A program made the position numbers and the translations under genes. Source: Victivallales bacterium (GTDB taxonomy: Bacteria; Verrucomicrobiota; Lentisphaeria; Oligosphaerales; Oligosphaeraceae). Taken from it: a stretch of 64,000 nt of DNA. How positions within the stretch are numbered: position 1 is the stretch's first letter; each line of letters opens with the position of its first letter. Shown here in pieces: positions 2,175 through 64,000 of the stretch. Location of the stretch: assembly GCA_017535315.1 (NCBI GenBank), contig JAFXUD010000003.1, forward strand, positions 62,001 to 126,000. Direction: 5' to 3'. The notes under the pieces were generated by a model that worked only from the letters and a program-made list of their open reading frames with translations, was not told the origin of the DNA and did not search any database.

Positions 2175-2380
2175 CGGGGGGCTTATGCCCCCCGCGCCCC
2201 CCTGGTCTGTGGTGCATGGGGGCCTTCGCCCCCGCGCCCCCCCTGGTCTGTGGTGCATGGGGGCCTTCGCCCCCGCGCCCCCCCTGGTCTGTGGTGCATG
2301 GGGGCCTTCGCCCCCGCGCCCCCCTGGTCTGTGGTGCATGGGGGCCTTCGCCCCCGCGCCCCCCTGGTCTGTGGCGCACG
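2175..2380. repeat. 40-41 bp GC-rich tandem repeat array
   Basis: The word CTGGTCTGTGGTGCATGGGG starts at 2202, 2243, 2284 and 2324, with a diverged copy at 2364 (spacing 41, 41, 40, 40). Each unit contains the hairpin GGGGGCCTTCGCCCCC; the first unit has GGGGGGCTTATGCCCCCC instead. The array sits between the convergent ends of the PHP-like protein and the MFS transporter, so it may act as a bidirectional transcription barrier. It has no spacers, so it is not a CRISPR array. Open frames across it are artefacts. Confidence 0.9.
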
Positions 2381-17961: not shown

Positions 17962-18918
17962 ATGCGTAAATTCAAGACCAGTTCATTTTTTATCGAATAT
18001 GCCCCGTACATGGCGTTGGCACTGTTGTTGGTGATCTGCTGCATTTCAAGCTCTGGCTTTCGGAAGCCACAGAACCTGTTGAACATCACGCGTCAGGTCT
18101 CGTACAGCGGCATCATCGCGCTTGGGATGACCTTTGTCATCATTGGCGGAGGGATAGACCTCTCGGTCGGCTCCTTGCTGGCCCTGTCTGGGACTCTTGG
18201 CATCATGACAATGCTGCGCATCGAGAATCCTATGACGGGTCTCCTGGTGGCGGCAGTGGTGGCGTTTGCCGTCGGCTTCGGGGGCGGTGCGGTCAATGGA
18301 CTGTTGGTGAACCTGGGCAAGGTGCCGCCTTTCATCGCAACATTGGGTACCATGTCCATCTTTAGGTCGCTTACTCTGCAACTGACCAACGCAGGCACGC
18401 TATCGACCTCCAACGCTGCTTATGGTAACCTGGGCGGTGCGCTGTTGTGCAGAATCCCACTGCCCACGCTGACGCTGTTTGTGCTGACGGCCCTCGGTTC
18501 GGTCCTGCTCTACAAGACCCGCTTTGGACGGCATGTCTGCGCATTAGGCTCGAATGAGCGAGTGGCGAGGTATGCAGCCATCAATACGCCGCTGGTAAGT
18601 TTCTGGACGTATGCCCTCACTGGGCTTCTGACAGGGCTGAGCGGTTTCCTGCTGGGAGGGCGTCTTTGTTCCATCAGCTCCACAACGGCGGGGCTGGGGT
18701 ATGAGCTGGATGCCATTGCGGCGGCCATTATCGGCGGCACCTCCATGTCTGGCGGACGTGGGTCACTGGCGGGCACGCTGGTGGGTGTGCTGATACTTGG
18801 CATCATCAGCAACGTGCTCGTGATGTGGGGCGTTTCTGCCAACCTCCAGGATGCAGTGAAGGGTATCGTCATCGTGGCAGCTGTGCTGATGCAGCCACGG
18901 AAGAAGATTAGCAATTAG
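17962..18918 (+). CDS. Sugar ABC importer permease (RbsC/MglC type)
   Basis: 318 residues, hydrophobic throughout with about eight to ten membrane spans, including GMTFVIIGGGIDLSVGSLLA (the CUT2 hallmark) and AAAIIGGTSMSGGRGSLAGT, which contacts the ATPase. It begins 14 bp after the ATPase stop. An upstream in-frame ATG at 17929 would overlap the ATPase. The last residues KKISN and the stop are encoded by the heptad ATTAGCAATTAG, so the repeat defines the protein end. Confidence 0.92.
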   Translation: MRKFKTSSFFIEYAPYMALALLLVICCISSSGFRKPQNLLNITRQVSYSGIIALGMTFVIIGGGIDLSVGSLLALSGTLGIMTMLRIENPMTGLLVAAVVAFAVGFGGGAVNGLLVNLGKVPPFIATLGTMSIFRSLTLQLTNAGTLSTSNAAYGNLGGALLCRIPLPTLTLFVLTALGSVLLYKTRFGRHVCALGSNERVARYAAINTPLVSFWTYALTGLLTGLSGFLLGGRLCSISSTTAGLGYELDAIAAAIIGGTSMSGGRGSLAGTLVGVLILGIISNVLVMWGVSANLQDAVKGIVIVAAVLMQPRKKISN

Positions 18919-18946
18919 CAACCTCTTGCTAATTGCTAATTGCTAT
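18907..18946. repeat. Inverted AATTAGC heptads at the permease stop codon
   Basis: ATTAGCAATTAGCAA (18907-18921) and TTGCTAATTGCTAAT (18926-18940) are perfect 15-bp inverted arms around CCTC. The left arm overlaps the last codons and the TAG of the permease. The structure may reduce downstream expression or stabilise the upstream mRNA. Confidence 0.85.
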
Positions 18947-18965: not shown

Positions 18966-19922
18966 ATGAAACGAGTGTTTATTGCATTGTTGTTTGGGAT
19001 GTTATGTCTATTCAGCGGGTGCGGCAAGAAGGTGAATTCGCCTAAGGTGTTTCGCATAGGTGTTTCTGTGCCCAGCCAAGACCATGGTTGGACGGGTGGC
19101 GTCGTGTGGTGGGCGCAGAAGACTGCCAAGGAGATGATGGAAGATGATTCCGATGTCAAGGTTACGGTCGCGACGGCGAAGGATGCTGGCGAGCAGGTGA
19201 ACCAGGTGGAGAACCTGATGGTGCAGGGGATTGACGCACTCGTCATCCTGCCGCAGGAGCCAGGCCCGCTCACGAAAATCTGCGAAACCGTGAAGCAGGC
19301 AGGCGTCTATCTTGTGGTTGTGGATCGCAACTTGGAGCGTCCAGTGCAGGATTTGTCTGTCGTTGGAGACAATCCAGGCTTTGGGAAGGCGGGAGGCGAG
19401 ACGATGGTAAAATTCCTGGAAGGGAAAGGGAATATCGTTATCATGGAAGGAATCCCCTGCCAGGTGAACACAGATCGCGTGGAGGCCTTCAAGGCGGAAC
19501 TAGCAAAAGCCCCTGGCATCAAGGTGCTTGATTCGCAGCCAGCCTACTGGGACACGGAGAAGGGCCTGAAACTCATGGAAAACTACCTCCAGAAACACGG
19601 CAACATCGATGCGGTCTGGACGGGTGACGATGATGTGCTTGTTGGTGCATTGAAGGCCTACGAGGAATCGGGGCGCAAGGATGTTAAGTGCTTCATCGGT
19701 GGCGGTGGCAGCAAGATGATTGTCAAAAAGGTGCTGGACAAGGACCCGCTCGTCCCCTTTGACGTCACCTATCCGCCCTCTATGATTGCTGTTGGCATGA
19801 AAGCAGCCTCCGACTTTGTGCGCGGTGTCGTGGCAGACCAGGGAAAACTAATCAAGGTCCCCGCCGAGGTGATCACCCCTGAAAACGCCCAGAAGTACTA
19901 CTTCCCAGACTCCGTCTATTAA
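18966..19922 (+). CDS. Periplasmic sugar-binding lipoprotein (Peripla_BP_4)
   Basis: 318 residues. The N-terminus MKRVFIALLFGMLCLFSGCGKK has a lipobox (FSGC), so it is a lipoprotein. Then FRIGVSVPSQDHGWTGGV and GIDALVILPQEPGPLTKIC mark the type I periplasmic-binding fold, with the DRN and DNPGFGKAGGETMV ligand regions. This is the substrate-capture part of the adjacent CUT2 importer. AAAGGAG precedes the ATG well spaced. The protein stops just before heptad repeats that form a terminator. Confidence 0.92.
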   Translation: MKRVFIALLFGMLCLFSGCGKKVNSPKVFRIGVSVPSQDHGWTGGVVWWAQKTAKEMMEDDSDVKVTVATAKDAGEQVNQVENLMVQGIDALVILPQEPGPLTKICETVKQAGVYLVVVDRNLERPVQDLSVVGDNPGFGKAGGETMVKFLEGKGNIVIMEGIPCQVNTDRVEAFKAELAKAPGIKVLDSQPAYWDTEKGLKLMENYLQKHGNIDAVWTGDDDVLVGALKAYEESGRKDVKCFIGGGGSKMIVKKVLDKDPLVPFDVTYPPSMIAVGMKAASDFVRGVVADQGKLIKVPAEVITPENAQKYYFPDSVY

Positions 19923-19926
19923 TTTG

Positions 19927-20013
19927 TAATTAGCAATTAGCAATTCTAATTGCTTTTTTTTAATTTCTAATTTCTAATTGCTAATTTCTAATTGCTAATT
20001 GCTAATTGCCCCA
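19927..20013. repeat. AATTAGC/TAATTGC heptad block downstream of the ABC operon
   Basis: Starting five bases past the lipoprotein stop: AATTAGCAATTAGCAATTC, a T-run, then TAATTTC and TAATTGC units in the opposite orientation up to the mazG start. The mazG ATG at 20016 is only two bases beyond, leaving no recognisable ribosome-binding site. Confidence 0.85.
19932..19961 (+). terminator. Rho-independent terminator built from heptad repeats
   Basis: AGCAATTA (19932-19939) and TAATTGCT (19947-19954) form an 8-bp stem with loop GCAATTC followed by eight T. Ends the ABC importer operon. The stem is AT-rich, so strength is uncertain. Confidence 0.55.
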
Positions 20014-20801: not shown

Positions 20802-21814
20802 TGGATATTGAACGCATCTGTCGCGAGGCTGGGGCGTTGAAATGGGCGGTGCTTCGCCCCGAGGAGGTTTCCCCCGAGGATGTGCGGCGCCATTATGAGC
20901 ATTGGCTGAAGCGGGGAAACGAAGGTGCATTAAGCTATATTGACAAGCGGCTTGCGATGCTGATCGATCCCTTCGGGGTGCGTCCCTGGGCAAAATCGCT
21001 TTTGCTGATTGTTTTCAGGCCTGAAAAAGTGTCGGATTCGCCTTTGCTTCGGCTTCCTTCCCCCACAGAGAGTGGGGGTGTCGGACGGATTGCTGGCTAT
21101 GCCTTGCGCGAAGATTATCACCTTGCGGGCAGACGGATATTGGAGCGCATTAAGGAGGAACTGTCTGAGTTTGGAGTGACGCAAAGCGAGTTGTGCGTGG
21201 ATTCCAGTCCCGTGCCTGAAAAGTATCTTGCGAAGGTGGCTGGGCTAGGTACAGGGGCACCGAATTCATTGGTGCGTGTTTCGGACTTTGGTTGTCGTGT
21301 CTATCTTGGGGCATTGTTTATCGATTTGGAGTTGCCATCACTTCATGGCAACGCGATGTTTGCTGTGGGATGTGCCTCCTGTCTGAAGTGTCGGCTTGCC
21401 TGCCCGAACCGCGCCATGATGGACGATGGCACGTTGATTGTGCGGGCTTGCCGTTCGTGGATGGCGGGCGAATGGCGCGGGCCATTGACGTGGGCGCAAC
21501 AAAATGCGTTGGGAGGCAATCTGTTTGGTTGCTCAATATGCAGTTCGTGTTGCCCAGAAGACGCATTGGGAGATGAGGATTTGCATGTGGATTGCCTGCA
21601 AATCCTGAAAATGCCCACGGGGGAACTGAAGCGTTTGATTGCGGGCACGCCTTTGCAACACGTCGGGACAACCCTGCTCAAGCGAAATGCCGCCGCCGCT
21701 GTTGGGGTGCAGTGCGGAACCCCTGTACTGCAAAAAGAGCTGCTTGAAATTTGCAACAGCCCTGTTGTTGCAGAGACTGTTCGCGCGTGGAAAGACAGGA
21801 GGGCTTGGCTTTAA
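20798..21814 (+). CDS. queG: Epoxyqueuosine reductase
   Basis: 338 residues. The C-terminal half has the ferredoxin-like 4Fe-4S motifs GCASCLKCRLACPNRA (about residue 190) and LFGCSICSSCCPED (about 240), spaced as in QueG, and the N-terminus has the cobalamin-binding fold with AGYALREDYH and DSSPVPEKYLAKVAGLG. QueG makes the last step of queuosine in tRNA. The usual 'PT' after the first cluster is 'PNRA' here. Two ATGs occur at the start; the first is used because of the ATGA overlap with mazG. No other queuosine gene is in the window. Confidence 0.9.
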   Translation: MMDIERICREAGALKWAVLRPEEVSPEDVRRHYEHWLKRGNEGALSYIDKRLAMLIDPFGVRPWAKSLLLIVFRPEKVSDSPLLRLPSPTESGGVGRIAGYALREDYHLAGRRILERIKEELSEFGVTQSELCVDSSPVPEKYLAKVAGLGTGAPNSLVRVSDFGCRVYLGALFIDLELPSLHGNAMFAVGCASCLKCRLACPNRAMMDDGTLIVRACRSWMAGEWRGPLTWAQQNALGGNLFGCSICSSCCPEDALGDEDLHVDCLQILKMPTGELKRLIAGTPLQHVGTTLLKRNAAAAVGVQCGTPVLQKELLEICNSPVVAETVRAWKDRRAWL

Positions 21815-22020
21815 GGGACTTGAACGACAGGATGGCTTGGCTTTAAGGGACTTGAGGGACGGGAGCGACGGGAGCGACAGAGCAAAAGGAGGGCTTGGCT
21901 TTAAGGGACAGAGCAATAGGAGAGGTTTTAAGGGACTTGAGGGACGGGAGAGACGGGAGAAACACAGCTTTGCTGAAACAATAATCACTGTCTCTCCCGT
22001 CCCTCAAGTCCCTTTTTTGT
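21803..22020 (+). repeat. GGGACGGGAGCGAC repeat block ending in a strong hairpin terminator
   Basis: Copies of GGCTTGGCTTTAAGGGACTTG occur three times (from about 21806), with GGGACGGGAGCGACGGGAGCGAC inserts. The last part is a perfect 25-bp inverted repeat: arms 21930-21954 and 21990-22014, opening AAGGGACTTGAGGGACGGGA, followed by TTTTTT. It should terminate the mazG-queG operon. Same family as 173-373 and 31389-31486. Confidence 0.85.
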
Positions 22021-24580: not shown

Positions 24581-25627
24581 ATGAAAATCAGCTTTATACG
24601 AGTATTCCTGAAGAAACGGTATCCGCTGACCATCAGCCGTGGCACGAGCTATGGTACGGAGAACCTCTTTGTGCGCGTCAACTACCTGGGGCAGACAGGC
24701 CTGGGGGAGCTGGCGGGGACGCCTAACAACATTGGAGAGAGTTGCGAAAGCGGCATCGCTGAACTGGAGCCATTCTGCGCATCCATAGAGGACGAATCAA
24801 TCGGCATCGCAGAGATTTGGGCGAAGGCGCGCCAGGCAGGCGTGCAGCCCCGTGCGTTGGCGGCATTGGACATGGCGCTGTGGGATGCACTTGGCAAGGC
24901 AAGTGGTCAGCCCCTTTGGCGGCTGTTCGGACTGCGTCGTGAAGCGGTAGCCACCTCCATTACCGTTGGCATCAATCCCGCTGAAGTCACCCGTGAGCGC
25001 GTGCCTGAGATGCTTGCGCGTACAGGGGCAAAATACCTGAAGGTGAAGTTGGGTTCCCCACAGGGATTGGAGGTTGACAAGGCGCATTTCATGGCGGCAC
25101 TGGAATCCTCGCGCCCCTTCCATTCAATCATTCGCGTGGATGCGAATGGCGGCTGGTCGGTAGCGGATGCGCTGCACATGCAGGATTGGCTGGCCGAGCG
25201 GGGCGTCGATTACATCGAGCAGCCGTTGGTCAAGGGGGCTGAGGATGCCCTGCCTGAACTTTTCAAGAAGCGCAGGCTTCCTATTTTTGTGGATGAATCC
25301 TGCTGGTTTGCCTCTGATGTGCCCAAACTGGCGGACCGCGTCGATGGCGTGAATCTGAAATTGATGAAATGCGGCGGCCTGACGGAGGCGTTGCGCATTG
25401 TGGCGGTGGCCCGTGCTTTCGGGCTCAAGACAATGATCGGCTGCATGGGCGAATCAAACGTCGCGATTTCGGCAGGCGCCTCCATTGGTGCCCTTTTCGA
25501 CCATATTGATTTGGATTCCCAGTTGAACCTGGTGGATGATCCGACGACGGGTGCGGAACTGACCGATGGTGTCGTTTTGCCGAACTTCAAGCCTGGCCAC
25601 GGCGCTGAATTAGCAATTAGCAATTAG
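24581..25627 (+). CDS. Enolase-superfamily epimerase (DgcA/dipeptide-epimerase type)
   Basis: 348 residues with the mandelate-racemase/MLE layout. N-terminal capping domain, then ALDMALWDALGKA, general-base YLKVKLG, metal ligands RVDANGGW (Asp), EQPL (Glu), DES (Asp) and the second-base region LKLMKCGGL. Related proteins are L-Ala-D/L-Glu epimerase and DgcA (N-acetyl-D-glutamate racemase). The next gene is a DUF1611 protein, the usual partner of DgcA, so N-acyl-amino-acid racemisation is inferred. The final residues ELAISN and stop come from AATTAGC heptads (25608-25628). Start is ATG 24581; no clear ribosome site. Confidence 0.85.
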   Translation: MKISFIRVFLKKRYPLTISRGTSYGTENLFVRVNYLGQTGLGELAGTPNNIGESCESGIAELEPFCASIEDESIGIAEIWAKARQAGVQPRALAALDMALWDALGKASGQPLWRLFGLRREAVATSITVGINPAEVTRERVPEMLARTGAKYLKVKLGSPQGLEVDKAHFMAALESSRPFHSIIRVDANGGWSVADALHMQDWLAERGVDYIEQPLVKGAEDALPELFKKRRLPIFVDESCWFASDVPKLADRVDGVNLKLMKCGGLTEALRIVAVARAFGLKTMIGCMGESNVAISAGASIGALFDHIDLDSQLNLVDDPTTGAELTDGVVLPNFKPGHGAELAISN

Positions 25628-25680
25628 CCCCAGTCCCTGCTCCCTAACCACTAACAACTAACCACTAACCACAAACCACT
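25608..25680. repeat. AATTAGC heptads followed by CTAACCAC repeats
   Basis: Three perfect AATTAGC units (25608-25628) cover the epimerase stop. After CCCCAGTCCCTGCTCCCT comes a second repeat, CTAACCACTAACAACTAACC, with ACTAACCACAAACCACTT (25644-25680), ending at the AGGAG of the DUF1611 gene. Confidence 0.8.
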
Positions 25681-25691
25681 TAGGAGAAATA

Positions 25692-26729
25692 ATGCTTCCA
25701 TCTGACATGCCACTGGCGATTTACATGGAGGATACTTTTGGAAAGACCTTCGGGAAAATGGGATACGACATGCTTCGCTTTTCGGAGAACCCGATAGTCT
25801 GCATCATCGACAGCTGCGAGGCTGGCAAGAAGGCTGGCGATGTGATGCCTGGTTCGCCACGTTCGGAAACGCCGATTGTCGCCACGGTTGACGAGGCCTT
25901 CAAATTGGGTGCGAAGGCGATGCTGCTGGGCAGCGCGCCGTCTGGCGGACTGCTTCCCGACAGCTGGTATCCCGCGCTGGATCGTGCAGTTGAACTGGGT
26001 ATGAACATCATTAACGGGCTCCATCAGCGTTTGAATGCCCGCTACACGAAACTGGCGGCAGGTCAGTGGATATGGGATATCCGCCAGGAGCCCGCAGGAC
26101 TGGGCATCGGCAAAGGCCGTGCGCGGGAGCTCTCCGCAAAGCGCCTTCTAATTGTCGGCACGGATATGGCCAACGGCAAAATGACGACAGGGTTGCTGCT
26201 GCACAAGGATGCTTTGGCACGTGGCGTGAAGTCGTGCTTCCTGGCGACTGGTCAGATAGGCATTGCCATCTGCGGCAAGGGCGTGCCTCTGGATGCCATC
26301 AAGTTGGACTACGCCTGCGGCGCCGTTGAGAAGGGCGTGTTGGAATATGCAGGGGCAGATTTGATTGTCGTGGAAGGGCAGGGCTCTGTGCTTCATCCAG
26401 GCAGCACGGCCACGCTGCCGCTACTGCGCGGTTCGTGCCCAACCCATCTAATCCTGAATCACCGCGCCGACTTGAAGACGCTGCGCGATTTTCCCTGGAT
26501 GAAGGTGCCGCCGTTGAGTGAAGTCTGCGACTTGTACGAGCGTCTGGCGTGCGCATGCGGCTGTTTGCCTGCCGCGAAGGTTGTGGGCATCTCCCTGAAT
26601 ACCTCGCATTTGAGCGACGAGGAGGCGAAGGCATATATCGCGAAGACGGAGGCGGAAACGGGCCTGCCAACCACTGACCCCGTGCGCTATGGCGTTGAAA
26701 AACTGACCGATGCTGTCCTGAACAAATAG
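25692..26729 (+). CDS. DUF1611 family protein (DgcN-type)
   Basis: 345 residues. The C-terminal P-loop domain starts with VGTDMANGKMTTGLLL (about residue 155), as in DUF1611; the N-terminal Rossmann-like half has DTFGKTFGKMGYDMLRF, an IIDSCEAGKKAGDVMPG turn and LLGSAPSGGLLPDSWYPAL. The best-known member, DgcN, is a D-glutamate N-acetyltransferase that works with DgcA. Adjacent gene order (epimerase then DUF1611) matches that pair. TAGGAG in ACTTAGGAGAAATA precedes the ATG. Whether it uses D-glutamate or a peptidoglycan-type peptide is open. Confidence 0.85.
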   Translation: MLPSDMPLAIYMEDTFGKTFGKMGYDMLRFSENPIVCIIDSCEAGKKAGDVMPGSPRSETPIVATVDEAFKLGAKAMLLGSAPSGGLLPDSWYPALDRAVELGMNIINGLHQRLNARYTKLAAGQWIWDIRQEPAGLGIGKGRARELSAKRLLIVGTDMANGKMTTGLLLHKDALARGVKSCFLATGQIGIAICGKGVPLDAIKLDYACGAVEKGVLEYAGADLIVVEGQGSVLHPGSTATLPLLRGSCPTHLILNHRADLKTLRDFPWMKVPPLSEVCDLYERLACACGCLPAAKVVGISLNTSHLSDEEAKAYIAKTEAETGLPTTDPVRYGVEKLTDAVLNK

Positions 26730-31388: not shown

Positions 31389-31486
31389 AAAGGGACAGGA
31401 GCGACAGGAATGACGGGAGCGACATCAAAATGACGCTAGGTCTTTTTTGGGGTCGCTCCCGTCATTCCTGTCGCTCCTGTCCCTTT
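31389..31486. repeat. Perfect 35-bp inverted repeat (GGGACAGGAGCGACAGGA family)
   Basis: Arms 31389-31423 and 31452-31486 are exact reverse complements, opening AAAGGGACAGGAGCGACAGG, with a 28-base loop holding TCTTTTTTGG. Belongs to the same family as 173-373 and 21803-22020. It lies between convergent genes and probably terminates transcription from both sides. Confidence 0.9.
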
Positions 31487-57232: not shown

Positions 57233-57665
57233 CGTGTGTTTTCCTTTTGTTATGGGGTGGGTTTGGAAGAATTAAAAGAAATTGAATATAACATAAACCA
57301 ATGTGCGGATTTTGCCAATGAAAGGGGCGTTTTTAGTCCCTTTTGTGGCTTTTTTGCGATTAGTGGTGTTTAGTGGTTAGTGTTTTTTTAATTGGGAATT
57401 AGATACTTTAGTTGCCGAATAGACTTCACCAACAGAGAAGAGCCGCGTAAGCGGCGGCAAGAGCATAGCCGTGGGTGGAGCGAAGCCGCGACAGCGGCGA
57501 AGCGAAACCCACGGTTAAATGACCCCCCCAGTCCCTGTGCGCCGTGCCGCGTAGCGTAGCGAAGCGGCAAGACGCATCCTGGCCATCGACCAGTGAGGGA
57601 TAATGTCATCAGGAAACTTAAGAATATACTTTCCTTGTTAATTGCTTATTACTAATTACTAATTG
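57233..57665. other. 433-bp gene-free region: CTAACCAC repeats, MITE copy D, AATTAGC repeats
   Basis: From left to right: about 130 bp of AT-rich leader for the oxidoreductase; GATTAGTGGTGTTTAGTGGT with TAGTG, a CTAACCAC-type repeat on the minus strand (57355-57383); MITE copy D; then the heptad block at 57636-57668. No gene. Reading in the minus direction the order heptads then CTAACCAC is the same as at 25608-25680. Confidence 0.75.
57394..57634. mobile_element. MITE-like repeat, copy D
   Basis: 241 bp, nearly the same as copy C across its length (ATACTTTAGTTGCCGA; GAAGAGCCGCGTAAGCGGCGG; GACCAGTGAGGGATAAT). Ends are less perfect: GGGAATTAGATACTT vs GGAAAGTATATTCTT. Flanks TTTTTAATT (57385-57393) and TTGTTAATT (57635-57643) look like a slightly decayed 9-bp target duplication. 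Lies 3' of the nitrilase-GDPD gene. Confidence 0.8.
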
Positions 57666-57670
57666 CTAAC
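57636..57670. repeat. AATTAGC-type heptads at the nitrilase-GDPD stop
   Basis: On the minus strand GGTTAGCAATTAGTAATTAG with TAATAAGCAATTAAC. The TAG in the first heptad is the stop codon of the nitrilase-GDPD gene, as for the permease and epimerase. Confidence 0.8.
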
Positions 57671-59273
57671 CCCTCAGGACATTGGCGATGTTCCAGTAGT
57701 CGTTTGTAAGGATGCAGTCGATGCCCATTTTCAGGAACTTGCGTGCCTCTTCTGGATCGTCGCTCCAGAAGACGTTGCAGAGGATGCCATTCTGGTGGGC
57801 TTTGTCGATCATCTCCTGGTTGAAGTATGGCTTGAAGAGCTGGACTTTGGAGCATTTGCACTCGATGGCGCGTTCAACGATGGTCCAGCCGTCGGGTGCG
57901 GCGCCCATGCAGCGCGGAATGTCGGGGGCTTCCTGAAGGGCGACCTTCAGCACATCGGCACTGCTCATGAAATAGACATGCTGACGCATGTCGTACTTGT
58001 CGATGAGGGCGACAATCTTGCGGAACTTGTCCAGAGGGTAGAAGCTATTGGGATGCCCGTCCTCAATGTCCCCTTTGATATGCATGTTGATGATGACCTG
58101 GCGTGCAAATTTAGCCAGAACCTCCTCCAGCGGGAGGACTGGCAGCGGCGAAAGCCTTTCGGCAAACTTTCCGCTAAAGTTAAGCTGCAGCAGCTCTTCA
58201 AAGCTCTTTTGATCGACGAAGCCCGTCCCGTTGGAGATGCGTTCCAGCTTTCGGTCGTGGACGCTGACAGGAACGCCGTCTTTCGTGAAGCGTACATCCA
58301 GCTCGATTTCGGGTGCGCCCAGGGCGATGGCGGCACCGAAGGCGGGCATTGTGTTTTCAGGGGCGAGGGTGCTGAAGCCACGGTGTGCGCAGATGCGTGG
58401 GTAGGGGTAGTCGCGGTCGCCAGGGATGGTCATACTGCCGCTCGGACGGTAGCTCCACGGGGTACGTCCCTGCTCGATGAAGCGGTCGTTGGCGATAGGC
58501 GCACCGCCGAATGTATTGCTGCGCATGTATTTCCAGTGCGGGTCGTCGATTTCGCAGGTGAAGATGCCAGTACGACTGCCGAAATCGCGGAGGAGCTTGC
58601 CATCGGGCGAGACGGCCAGCGAAGTGCCACCGCACTCTGCGTCAGTTCCCATGGAGAGAGACGCGCGCAGGACGAAGCTGTTGCAGTTGAAGGCAATCAT
58701 CTGGCTTTGGAGGCGCAGAATGTCCTGCCGTTCGCCACGCTGGAAGGAGGAGATGAGCACAATATCGGGATGCAATGTGCCAAGATGGGCGATGTATTCC
58801 GTGAAATAGGTGTCATAGCAGATGAGGAAGCCCAGACGCAGACCATCGACCTCCACAATGGAAGGCTGCGCGAAGGCGCGTGTGTAGCCGTTGTCCATTT
58901 TGAGGTTGTTCACTTCACCAGCCGTCAGATGCTGCTTGCAGTAGTCACCGACAGGTTCGCCTTGCGTATTATAGACGCGCGTCAGATTTCGGAACACGCC
59001 TTCTGAAACTTCGCACGCATAGCTAAGCGCGACAATGGCTTTGCAGCGGCGCGCCGCCTGGCGGGCTGCGTCAACCAATTTCGCCGTGTTTTTGCGGACA
59101 AAGGGGTGAAACTCCTCTTCCGAAAAGCCAGAGGGCGCATTGCTGTACTCGGGCGTGAGTATCAAGTCACAGCTTTCGTCGCACTGCTCCAATGCGTTGA
59201 TGATGAAATCGACAGAAGTTCCTGCCTGCTCAGGCGTGTGGGCGTAGGGTGGTTGGATGGCACAAAGTTTCAT
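57666..59273 (-). CDS. Nitrilase-glycerophosphodiesterase fusion
   Basis: 535 residues. Residues 1-275: carbon-nitrogen hydrolase with the Glu-Lys-Cys triad in LILTPEYSN, GDYCKQHLTAG and LGFLICYDTYF. Residues 292-535: GDPD TIM barrel with ICAHRGFSTLAPENT, PEIELDVRFTKDGVPVSVHD (Glu, Asp, His ligands) and CILTNDYWN at the end. Both active sites look intact. It could release an amide- or N-acyl-linked group and hydrolyse a glycerophosphodiester of the same lipid headgroup. No signal peptide, so probably cytoplasmic. The stop codon is within an AATTAGC heptad. Confidence 0.88.
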   Translation of the reverse strand: MKLCAIQPPYAHTPEQAGTSVDFIINALEQCDESCDLILTPEYSNAPSGFSEEEFHPFVRKNTAKLVDAARQAARRCKAIVALSYACEVSEGVFRNLTRVYNTQGEPVGDYCKQHLTAGEVNNLKMDNGYTRAFAQPSIVEVDGLRLGFLICYDTYFTEYIAHLGTLHPDIVLISSFQRGERQDILRLQSQMIAFNCNSFVLRASLSMGTDAECGGTSLAVSPDGKLLRDFGSRTGIFTCEIDDPHWKYMRSNTFGGAPIANDRFIEQGRTPWSYRPSGSMTIPGDRDYPYPRICAHRGFSTLAPENTMPAFGAAIALGAPEIELDVRFTKDGVPVSVHDRKLERISNGTGFVDQKSFEELLQLNFSGKFAERLSPLPVLPLEEVLAKFARQVIINMHIKGDIEDGHPNSFYPLDKFRKIVALIDKYDMRQHVYFMSSADVLKVALQEAPDIPRCMGAAPDGWTIVERAIECKCSKVQLFKPYFNQEMIDKAHQNGILCNVFWSDDPEEARKFLKMGIDCILTNDYWNIANVLRG

Positions 59274-62990: not shown

Positions 62991-63083
62991 GTAATTAGCA
63001 ATTAGCAATTAACAATTAGAAATTGGAAATTGGAAATTGGAAATTAGAAAAATGCTAATTGCTAATTGCTAATTGCTAATTTC
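62991..63083. repeat. Inverted AATTAGC/TAATTGC heptads with AATTGGA units
   Basis: GTAATTAGCAATTAGCAATT (62991-63010) and TGCTAATTGCTAATTGCTAA (63053-63072) with TTGCTAATTTC to 63083 are inverted, separated by AATTGGA heptads (AATTGGAAATTGGAAATTGG). On the minus strand it starts five bases after the MacB-like stop. It also lies in the pgm leader. Confidence 0.85.
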
Positions 63084-63088
63084 AAAAA

Positions 63089-64000
63089 TTATTCTTTGTT
63101 TTGAAGTAATTTGGCGGTTTCAGTGAGGCCAGCGGCGAGGGCGGGCCAGATGCCTGCCAGGGCGCAGACGCCGATGGCAAGCGCAAAGCCATGCGCAAGG
63201 GGACCCCACGGGATTGTGAGCGGCGGGGCGATGACGCCGAACATCGGCGCCAGGGTGACCATGGAGGTGGCAACCCAGGCGTAGAAGAGGCCGAAGCAGA
63301 AGCTGAGCACGCAGGCACAAAGGCCGATGAGCAGCGCTTCCGCAAGTATCATCCGCACGAGTCCCCAGCGGGTGACGCCGCACGCACGGAGAATGCCCAT
63401 CTCCCAGCGGCGTGACCGCACGGAGACAACCATCGTGTTGATGACGGCGATGGTGGAGAGCAGCAGGATGATGAGCGGCATCTGCGTCATGGTTTTGATG
63501 ACGCCTGTCGCGCGGAACATAAGGGAGTTGTTCAGGCTCTCGTTGGAGCTTACTATTACGAAGTTGCGGTTGATGCCGCTGTCCCAGCGGGTGCCTCCCG
63601 CAAAGCTGTTGGCGCGTCTGGCATCGGGATTCGCCTGCGCAGCATCCAGGGCCACGACACGCATATAATCGACGATGTCGGTATAGCGCGTGCCTTTGAC
63701 GGTGTCGAACCAAAAGAACTCCTGGTCGAGGGCACCGAAGTCCTCTATCAACGGCTGATAGGGGGTGAAGACGAGGCCCGCTGTGCGGCCAGAACTGACG
63801 CGCACGCCCGCGCATTTGGACATCCACACCCACGCGAAATCGACCACGCCGACAACGGTGTACTCTGCGTAGTCGATTGTGGATTCATCCTGCTGTGGTT
63901 GCGGTACCATAGGACCACGCATGTCCCGTGGGCGAGTGGCGGATTTGGCTAGGCGGATTGTGTCGCCAATATGGAGCTTGCCGTGGACGGAGAGCGTCTC
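63089..64000 (-). CDS. MacB-like ABC transporter permease, C-terminal part (partial)
   Basis: Open to the right edge; 303 residues seen. The start of the visible part is a periplasmic MacB_PCD-type region (ETLSVHGKLHIGDTIRLAKS, YTVVGVVDFAWVW), then the FtsX-like core: MPLIILLLSTIAVINTMVVS, SVRSRRWEMGILRACGVTRW, and LAEALLIGLCACVLSFCFGL and LAHGFALAIGVCALAGIWPA as the membrane spans. FtsX permeases in MacB or LolCE systems export lipids, toxins or lipoproteins and use mechanotransmission. The ATPase gene would lie to the right. It ends before a heptad repeat. Confidence 0.85.
   Translation of the reverse strand, partial: ETLSVHGKLHIGDTIRLAKSATRPRDMRGPMVPQPQQDESTIDYAEYTVVGVVDFAWVWMSKCAGVRVSSGRTAGLVFTPYQPLIEDFGALDQEFFWFDTVKGTRYTDIVDYMRVVALDAAQANPDARRANSFAGGTRWDSGINRNFVIVSSNESLNNSLMFRATGVIKTMTQMPLIILLLSTIAVINTMVVSVRSRRWEMGILRACGVTRWGLVRMILAEALLIGLCACVLSFCFGLFYAWVATSMVTLAPMFGVIAPPLTIPWGPLAHGFALAIGVCALAGIWPALAAGLTETAKLLQNKE

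Follow-up and report, generated by a model that had tools for sequence, protein, structure and literature searches.

Introduction

The REP/BIME/REPIN systems, with their RAYT transposases, are extragenic palindromes that often lie just past stop codons, and the STRR heptanucleotide repeats of heterocystous cyanobacteria (Calothrix) are tandem heptads scattered through intergenic DNA. In Xanthomonas and Nostoc, GGGAATC and GGGGA(T/C)T heptamers occupy well over 100 intergenic sites per genome; they lie nearer to the 5' neighboring ORF whatever its orientation, occur on the antisense strand when they are upstream of ORFs, include some inverted pairs, and, being G-rich, were taken to be G-quadruplex elements (Rehm et al. 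2015, PMC4692102). The TAACTGA direct repeats of Beggiatoaceae, some Cyanobacteria, and Bacteroidetes carry stops in all three forward frames and none in the reverse orientation, and they overlap gene stops; many of their arrays stand a few nucleotides before a start codon, where canonical ribosome-binding sites are scarce, and the repeats, which are mainly start-associated, were interpreted as a means of translational regulation, with no polarity rule drawn relative to the neighboring ORF (MacGregor 2015, PMC4679880). Heptads near stop codons were accounted for piecemeal: those of Xanthomonas as G-quadruplex regulators, those of Beggiatoaceae as regulators of translation.

Here, we address the tandem heptad AATTAGC in a window of 64,000 nt (the whole stretch of DNA that was analyzed), in the genome to which it belongs, and in related and unrelated genomes. 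The initial annotation of the window had proposed that these heptads supply the stop codons of genes. The heptads do give stop codons, but this framing is too narrow, because the arms in a sister genus also dock at start codons. Placement obeys a polar rule that is not confined to stops: (AATTAGC)n sets its 5' end against ORF edges and reads outward from them, and the stop codon is a by-product of this docking at the ORF edge.

Results

The heptad was strongly enriched, with 20 occurrences in the window compared with 5.43 ± 2.20 expected (none of 100 shuffles reached 20), and in the whole genome (4.9 Mb, 96 contigs) AATTAGCAATTAGC totaled 101, against 0 for the reversed control. Period 7 prevailed among tandem arrays, accounting for 61 of the 80 that had three or more perfect copies; a 7-base periodicity of intergenic DNA in general was rejected, as the lag-7 excess was nearly gone after removal of the known units. 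Each AATTAGC unit contains one G and no G-tract, and it makes stop codons available in all three forward frames, the endings AAT TAG, ATT AGC AAT TAG, and TTA GCA ATT AGC AAT TAG all having been seen. Among the sampled loci of this genome, none of 46 clusters lay inside a called gene and most came within 20 nt of a stop at one edge; these placement statistics, like those below, come from ~0.79 Mb of stretches picked because they hold arrays, with genes called by a home-made hexamer model. Other tandem repeats were also present. In particular, long (GGGACGT)n heptad arrays of up to 28 copies were observed (L055:5-200, L037:3884-4016, and L063:16895-16992), the L055 array extending to a gene edge, and a 41-bp tandem repeat of 4.7 copies (window 2189-2378) overlaps an ORF end at 2379-2384. 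Contigs C4, C6, C8, C10, C22, C55, C63, C67, C86, C88, and C89 begin or finish inside heptad arrays, as do many contigs of the sister species G001, whose genome is fragmented. Heptad arrays therefore break draft assemblies, and many contig ends of this genome fall in them.

Five genes of the window illustrate the placement of the arrays. An RbsC-type ABC sugar permease gene (17962-18918, plus strand; Pfam BPD_transp_2) ends in KKISN*, written AAG AAG ATT AGC AAT TAG, in which the last codons, ATT AGC AAT TAG, are array-derived and the stop lies inside the array. Positions 18907-18946, directly over this stop, read ATTAGCAATTAGCAA-CCTC-TTGCTAATTGCTAATTGC; the forward arm ATTAGCAATTAGCAA (18907-18921, plus) covers the stop codon, and a facing arm, (TTGCTAA)n (18926-18945, minus), ends before the ribosome-binding site AAAGGAGTG of the next gene. 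The sequence after the permease stop is CAACCTCTTGCTAATTGCTAATTGC, so that forward AATTAGC and facing GCTAATT heptads make up an inverted pair. The gene for a substrate-binding (periplasmic) lipoprotein (18966-19922, plus; Peripla_BP_4) has its own TAA, and a two-armed array (++---; 19928-20007, no single strand) starts 5 nt further on. The gene for an MR/MLE-family, mandelate racemase-like enzyme, the "epimerase" of the initial annotation (24581-25627, plus; MR_MLE_C), ends in LAISN* with its stop inside an array, three perfect AATTAGC units (25608-25628, plus) giving the last codons and the stop; a facing arm of a different heptad, CTAACCA, equivalent to TTAGTGG (25644-25680, minus), reaches the ribosome-binding site of the next gene, which starts at 25692. 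On the minus strand, a nitrilase-GDPD fusion gene (57666-59273) ends in VLRG*, as GGT TAG CAATTAGTAATTAG, with the stop at the array edge, and the degenerate heptad array TAGCAATTAGTAATTAGTAATAAGC (57635-57669, minus) begins with that stop codon. An FtsX/MacB-like gene (63089-63922, minus) has its own TAA, with heptads from 7 nt further on; its two-armed array (62993-63081, no single strand) sits between the start of a phosphoglucomutase-like gene (62975) and the FtsX/MacB-like stop (63089). Heptads over or near the stops of all five genes had been reported in the initial annotation. The repeat does supply the stop in three of them, the permease, the epimerase, and the nitrilase-GDPD gene, as had been claimed for each, but the lipoprotein and FtsX/MacB-like genes keep their own TAA, with the array 5-7 nt off.

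Facing arms gave strong predicted RNA stems (z -4.6 to -9.0), namely a 16-bp stem of -20.2 kcal/mol (z -4.6) between 18907-18921 and 18926-18945, a hairpin of -26.6 kcal/mol (z -7.2) at 19928-20007, and one of -34.1 kcal/mol (z -9.0) at 62993-63081; no long RNA stem was obtained for the stop-side tract in the racemase gap, which has one arm. The two-armed, stop-flush arrays might be functional REP-like intercistronic hairpins, kept for stabilization of upstream mRNA, operon tuning, or throttled translation at the stop, and E. coli REPs act in this way when they are within 15 nt of a stop. The very strong predicted hairpins are consistent with this reading, as is the position of one of them between the permease and binding-protein genes of one operon; in addition, a study cited in PMC12306157 is described there as finding lower translation with REPs <16 nt from a stop. 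Such a hairpin role is possible for the two-armed arrays. However, most arrays of the sister genus g10, in the same family, are one-armed and show polar docking although no local hairpin can form, both the unit and its presence vary between sister species, and the associated genes are diverse. PF01797, the REP-linked Y1 transposase domain, occurred in 22 of the 29 family genomes irrespective of arrays, and the array-rich G001 had only one weak match; because its presence does not track the arrays, a transposase of this kind was rejected as the agent, and the REP-like explanation itself appears unlikely to us.

Intrinsic transcription terminators would also place hairpins past stops, and two scanned array sites were terminator-like (18945-18909, minus; 19932-19954, plus). 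Terminator-like sites numbered only 9, however, against 8.2 expected by shuffling, the stems are AT-rich, most arrays have no T-run, and several arrays are intra-operonic, with the next start 7-30 nt away; this identity was rejected, and we find it barely credible. No Rfam 15 match above the gathering score was obtained at the window arrays or at six other loci. An attC/integron recombination site was dropped by eye, the sites being scattered and the core RYYYAAC/GTTRRRY absent.

We then scored clusters as stop-docked when they fell within -22 to +10 nt of a stop and compared them with random insertion into the same gaps, in which up to 22 nt of the gene could be consumed and 0-40 nt before starts were kept free. 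In this genome, 24 of 35 clusters were stop-docked compared with 11.5-14.8 expected, and none of 5,000 simulations reached 24, so that the placement is neither uniform with respect to stops nor random, in agreement with the initial annotation. The 5' end fell -20 to +15 nt from the stop in 30 of the 35 distances, the other five being 41, 257, 710, 819, and 1358 nt, and the stop codon was wholly within the array in 11 of 30 docked arms here and in 17 of 20 in g10. Start-docked clusters numbered 3 of 35 in this genome. In g10, stop-docking reached 23 of 46 clusters against 18-22 expected, and start-docking 13 of 46 against 1.0-6.8 expected. Ordinary simple sequence repeats inserted at random could be sieved by selection without any polarity mechanism if the sole harmless spot in compact operons were the space from the stop to the next ribosome-binding site. 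The g10 stop counts, in which gap sizes are allowed for, agree with such a lack of room, and many native gaps are short (25th percentile, 25-35 nt). Yet with g10 stop-docking near the null and start-docking far above it, compact gaps explain part of the effect and not all of it; an approximately two-fold docking excess remains in this genome, and neither the polarity nor the docking of arms 0-5 nt from a start codon is predicted. We accordingly place little faith in the lack of room as the explanation.

Two further candidates for the docking were set aside. Docking as a generic property of any local tandem repeat was rejected, as GACGGGAGC nonamers showed no stop-docking within 20 nt (0 of 9); in the window, nonamer arrays of this type (172-372, 21790-21960, and 31394-31481) form facing inverted arms between genes and are not stop-docked. 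A gene-caller artifact, in which arrays would truncate real genes, was rejected for the compared slots, where orthologue lengths were equal within a few residues.

In docked arms, AATTAGC runs away from the ORF, on the sense strand at stops and on the antisense strand at starts. The 5' end was nearer to the ORF than the 3' end in 41 arms compared with 15 here, where the P value is optimistic because the arms of two-armed arrays are not independent, and in 33 compared with 14 in g10; for the TTAGTGG unit of G001, the ratio was 11:0. Among arrays that a pattern scan found in other phyla, those outside the cyanobacteria docked as here, with stops within 20 nt of the 5' end in 16 of 29 cases and of the 3' end in 0 of 18. 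In contrast, cyanobacterial AATTAGC arrays were reversed, with stops at the A-end (5') in 2 of 42 and at the C-end (3') in 14 of 39; at the cyanobacterial loci L079-L190, it is the GCTAATT strand that points away from stops. Since TAA occurs in every frame of GCTAATT too, that orientation would serve equally well, and therefore stop supply cannot be the cause of the outward AATTAGC polarity; with the cyanobacterial reversal, the stop codons of the unit were judged insufficient to account for docking. The same reversal indicates that the unit sequence alone does not set the direction. G-quadruplexes cannot be a requirement for the polarity, given that AATTAGC lacks G-tracts.

Comparison with relatives showed what the arrays add to genes. 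In family members without arrays, permeases end in QRQR*, QRGKK*, or KPETT*, and the racemase-like enzymes end in GASFI* or GAVLNT*; since array-less orthologues end otherwise, KKISN* and LAISN* are repeat-made ends. The ISN ending, which could have been an old feature of these proteins, was likewise not found in distant repeat-less orthologues (QRQR*, GASFI*, EIYRM*). Arrays are inserted at or next to the native stop. In the L327 gap, the distance from the stop to the next ATG is ~42 and 41 nt with arrays (G011 and G020) compared with 19 nt without (G027 and G025), indicating that arrays add DNA.

We queried the sister species G001, in which the permease and the racemase-like enzyme share ~95-97% protein identity with those of this genome, with 32 C-termini. 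Eight slots, including L056, carry AATTAGC in both species, and copy number differs at L039 and L056, the latter being a minimal palindrome, AATTAGCAACGTTGCTAATT, in G001 compared with a 130-bp array here. At five sites (the racemase-like enzyme, L033, L035, L038, and L054), the AATTAGC stop array of this genome is replaced in G001 by (GTGGTTA)n/TTAGTGG. One slot, L047, was empty (YLG* versus YLGN*). The FtsX-like slot in G001 was considered as an empty site and rejected as not truly empty, because it keeps AATTAGA AATCAGA and only these. The G001 racemase gap consists entirely of heptads, (GTGGTTA)11 and (AATTAGC)2 followed by (CCACTAG/A)n as far as the ribosome-binding site; this site is identical in both sister species. 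In all four gaps where both units were found, TTAGTGG adjoins the ORF and AATTAGC lies farther out, and the order of unit addition is read from these four mixed gaps. Among g10 congeners, a given stop carries AATTAGC or AATGAGG in one register according to the species; at one ORF edge, for example, G020 has TAA|ATTAGC AATTAGC and G025 has TAA|ATGAGG AATGAGG. Many copies of TTAGTGG occur in G001, G012, and three g8 genomes, and other genomes have few or none, so that the unit is patchy by lineage.

A palindromic element with a core was present in 16 copies in this genome (L058:10129-10255 and 15 more); it consists of outer GTAATGCCTCACCGATTG terminal inverted repeats, AATTAGC arms, and a 45-bp core beginning GAACTATTCACCTATGGAGAACAGCATTCACTCCC, and single ~80%-identical copies occur in G001 and G027. 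The 16 core-bearing clusters are less tied to stops, and the element looks like a small mobile element (MITE) carrying heptads. Another dispersed repeat family is represented by a GC-rich repeat, beginning AAGCCGCGTTAGCGGCGGCAAGAACATAGCCGTGGGTGG, that is common to L045, L047, and L051 and lies just past the AATTAGC arrays at three stops. The core-bearing element with its terminal inverted repeats would fit targeted insertion, in which a mobile or templated system inserts the arrays where ORFs begin and end, each new unit going in beside the ORF. The sharp docking (-20 to +15 nt), at stops and starts alike, and the ORF-proximal position of TTAGTGG would fit as well. However, no enzyme or guide was found and the Y1 transposases do not track the arrays; many stop-docked arrays have neither core nor visible target-site duplication, g10 stop-docking taken alone is barely above the room-limited null, and the ordering comes from the four mixed gaps only. 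We hold targeted insertion to be quite improbable.

Discussion

On balance, and with modest confidence, we favor the view that these arrays are lineage-specific heptanucleotide simple sequence repeats that gather at ORF edges with fixed polarity, grow by polar slippage or template switching, and are copied between loci. In this model, polar slippage or template-switch synthesis would both create arrays and extend them, and the arrays may be copied from locus to locus, the one pointer to such copying being the shared unit. Because the unit carries TTAG, an array has stops in all six frames and cannot persist inside ORFs; at an ORF edge it would survive, the repeat taking over the last codons and supplying the stop, and newer units may join on the ORF side. 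If the genes on either side of a gap carry the same unit, the outward arms would face each other and yield a long intercistronic RNA hairpin, which could secondarily affect mRNA stability or termination. Most likely, the arrays are neutral or mildly selfish. Several points weigh against the favored view. The reversed polarity of the cyanobacterial arrays shows that direction is not set by the unit sequence alone. Random insertion with selection against ORF damage predicts neither the polarity nor docking at 0-5 nt from start codons, so that an extra directional process has to be assumed to account for both, and the 16 core-bearing copies resemble a small mobile element.

A more radical proposal is that a process sensing the border between coding and noncoding DNA repeatedly adds heptads outward, the newest unit being ORF-proximal and the choice of unit a "dialect" of each species, switched at the same sites between sister species; directional polymerase stutter or templated, telomerase-like 3'-end extension, independent of G-quadruplexes, could act in this way. 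We see only a slim chance that this proposal is correct. Whichever process is at work, the repeats remodel protein C-termini (SN*, ISN*, LAISN*). More importantly, polar ORF-edge placement of an AT-rich, G-tract-free unit, together with unit change at fixed sites between sister species, argues for a single general process underlying the heptamer repeats of bacteria, which becomes testable by resequencing related isolates.

Among the known systems, the heptamers described by Rehm et al. (2015) are similar in having a seven-base tandem unit at many sites, nearer to the ORF on the 5' side irrespective of its orientation; however, AATTAGC arrays have no G-tracts able to form G-quadruplexes, their docking is mostly within 15 nt, their units change between sister species, and their arms often form long hairpins. 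Like the TAACTGA repeats (MacGregor 2015), AATTAGC has stops in the three forward frames and overlaps gene stops, but the unit is another one and, unlike TAACTGA, its reverse strand also carries stops. The arrays differ from REP/BIME/REPIN elements in being tandem heptads with no conserved REP unit and with no tracking by PF01797, and from the STRR repeats in that cyanobacterial AATTAGC loci show the opposite polarity and little A-end docking. Taken together, the AATTAGC arrays belong to the known heptad class of outward-polar, ORF-edge geometry, and what is new is a unit that is unable to form a G-quadruplex.
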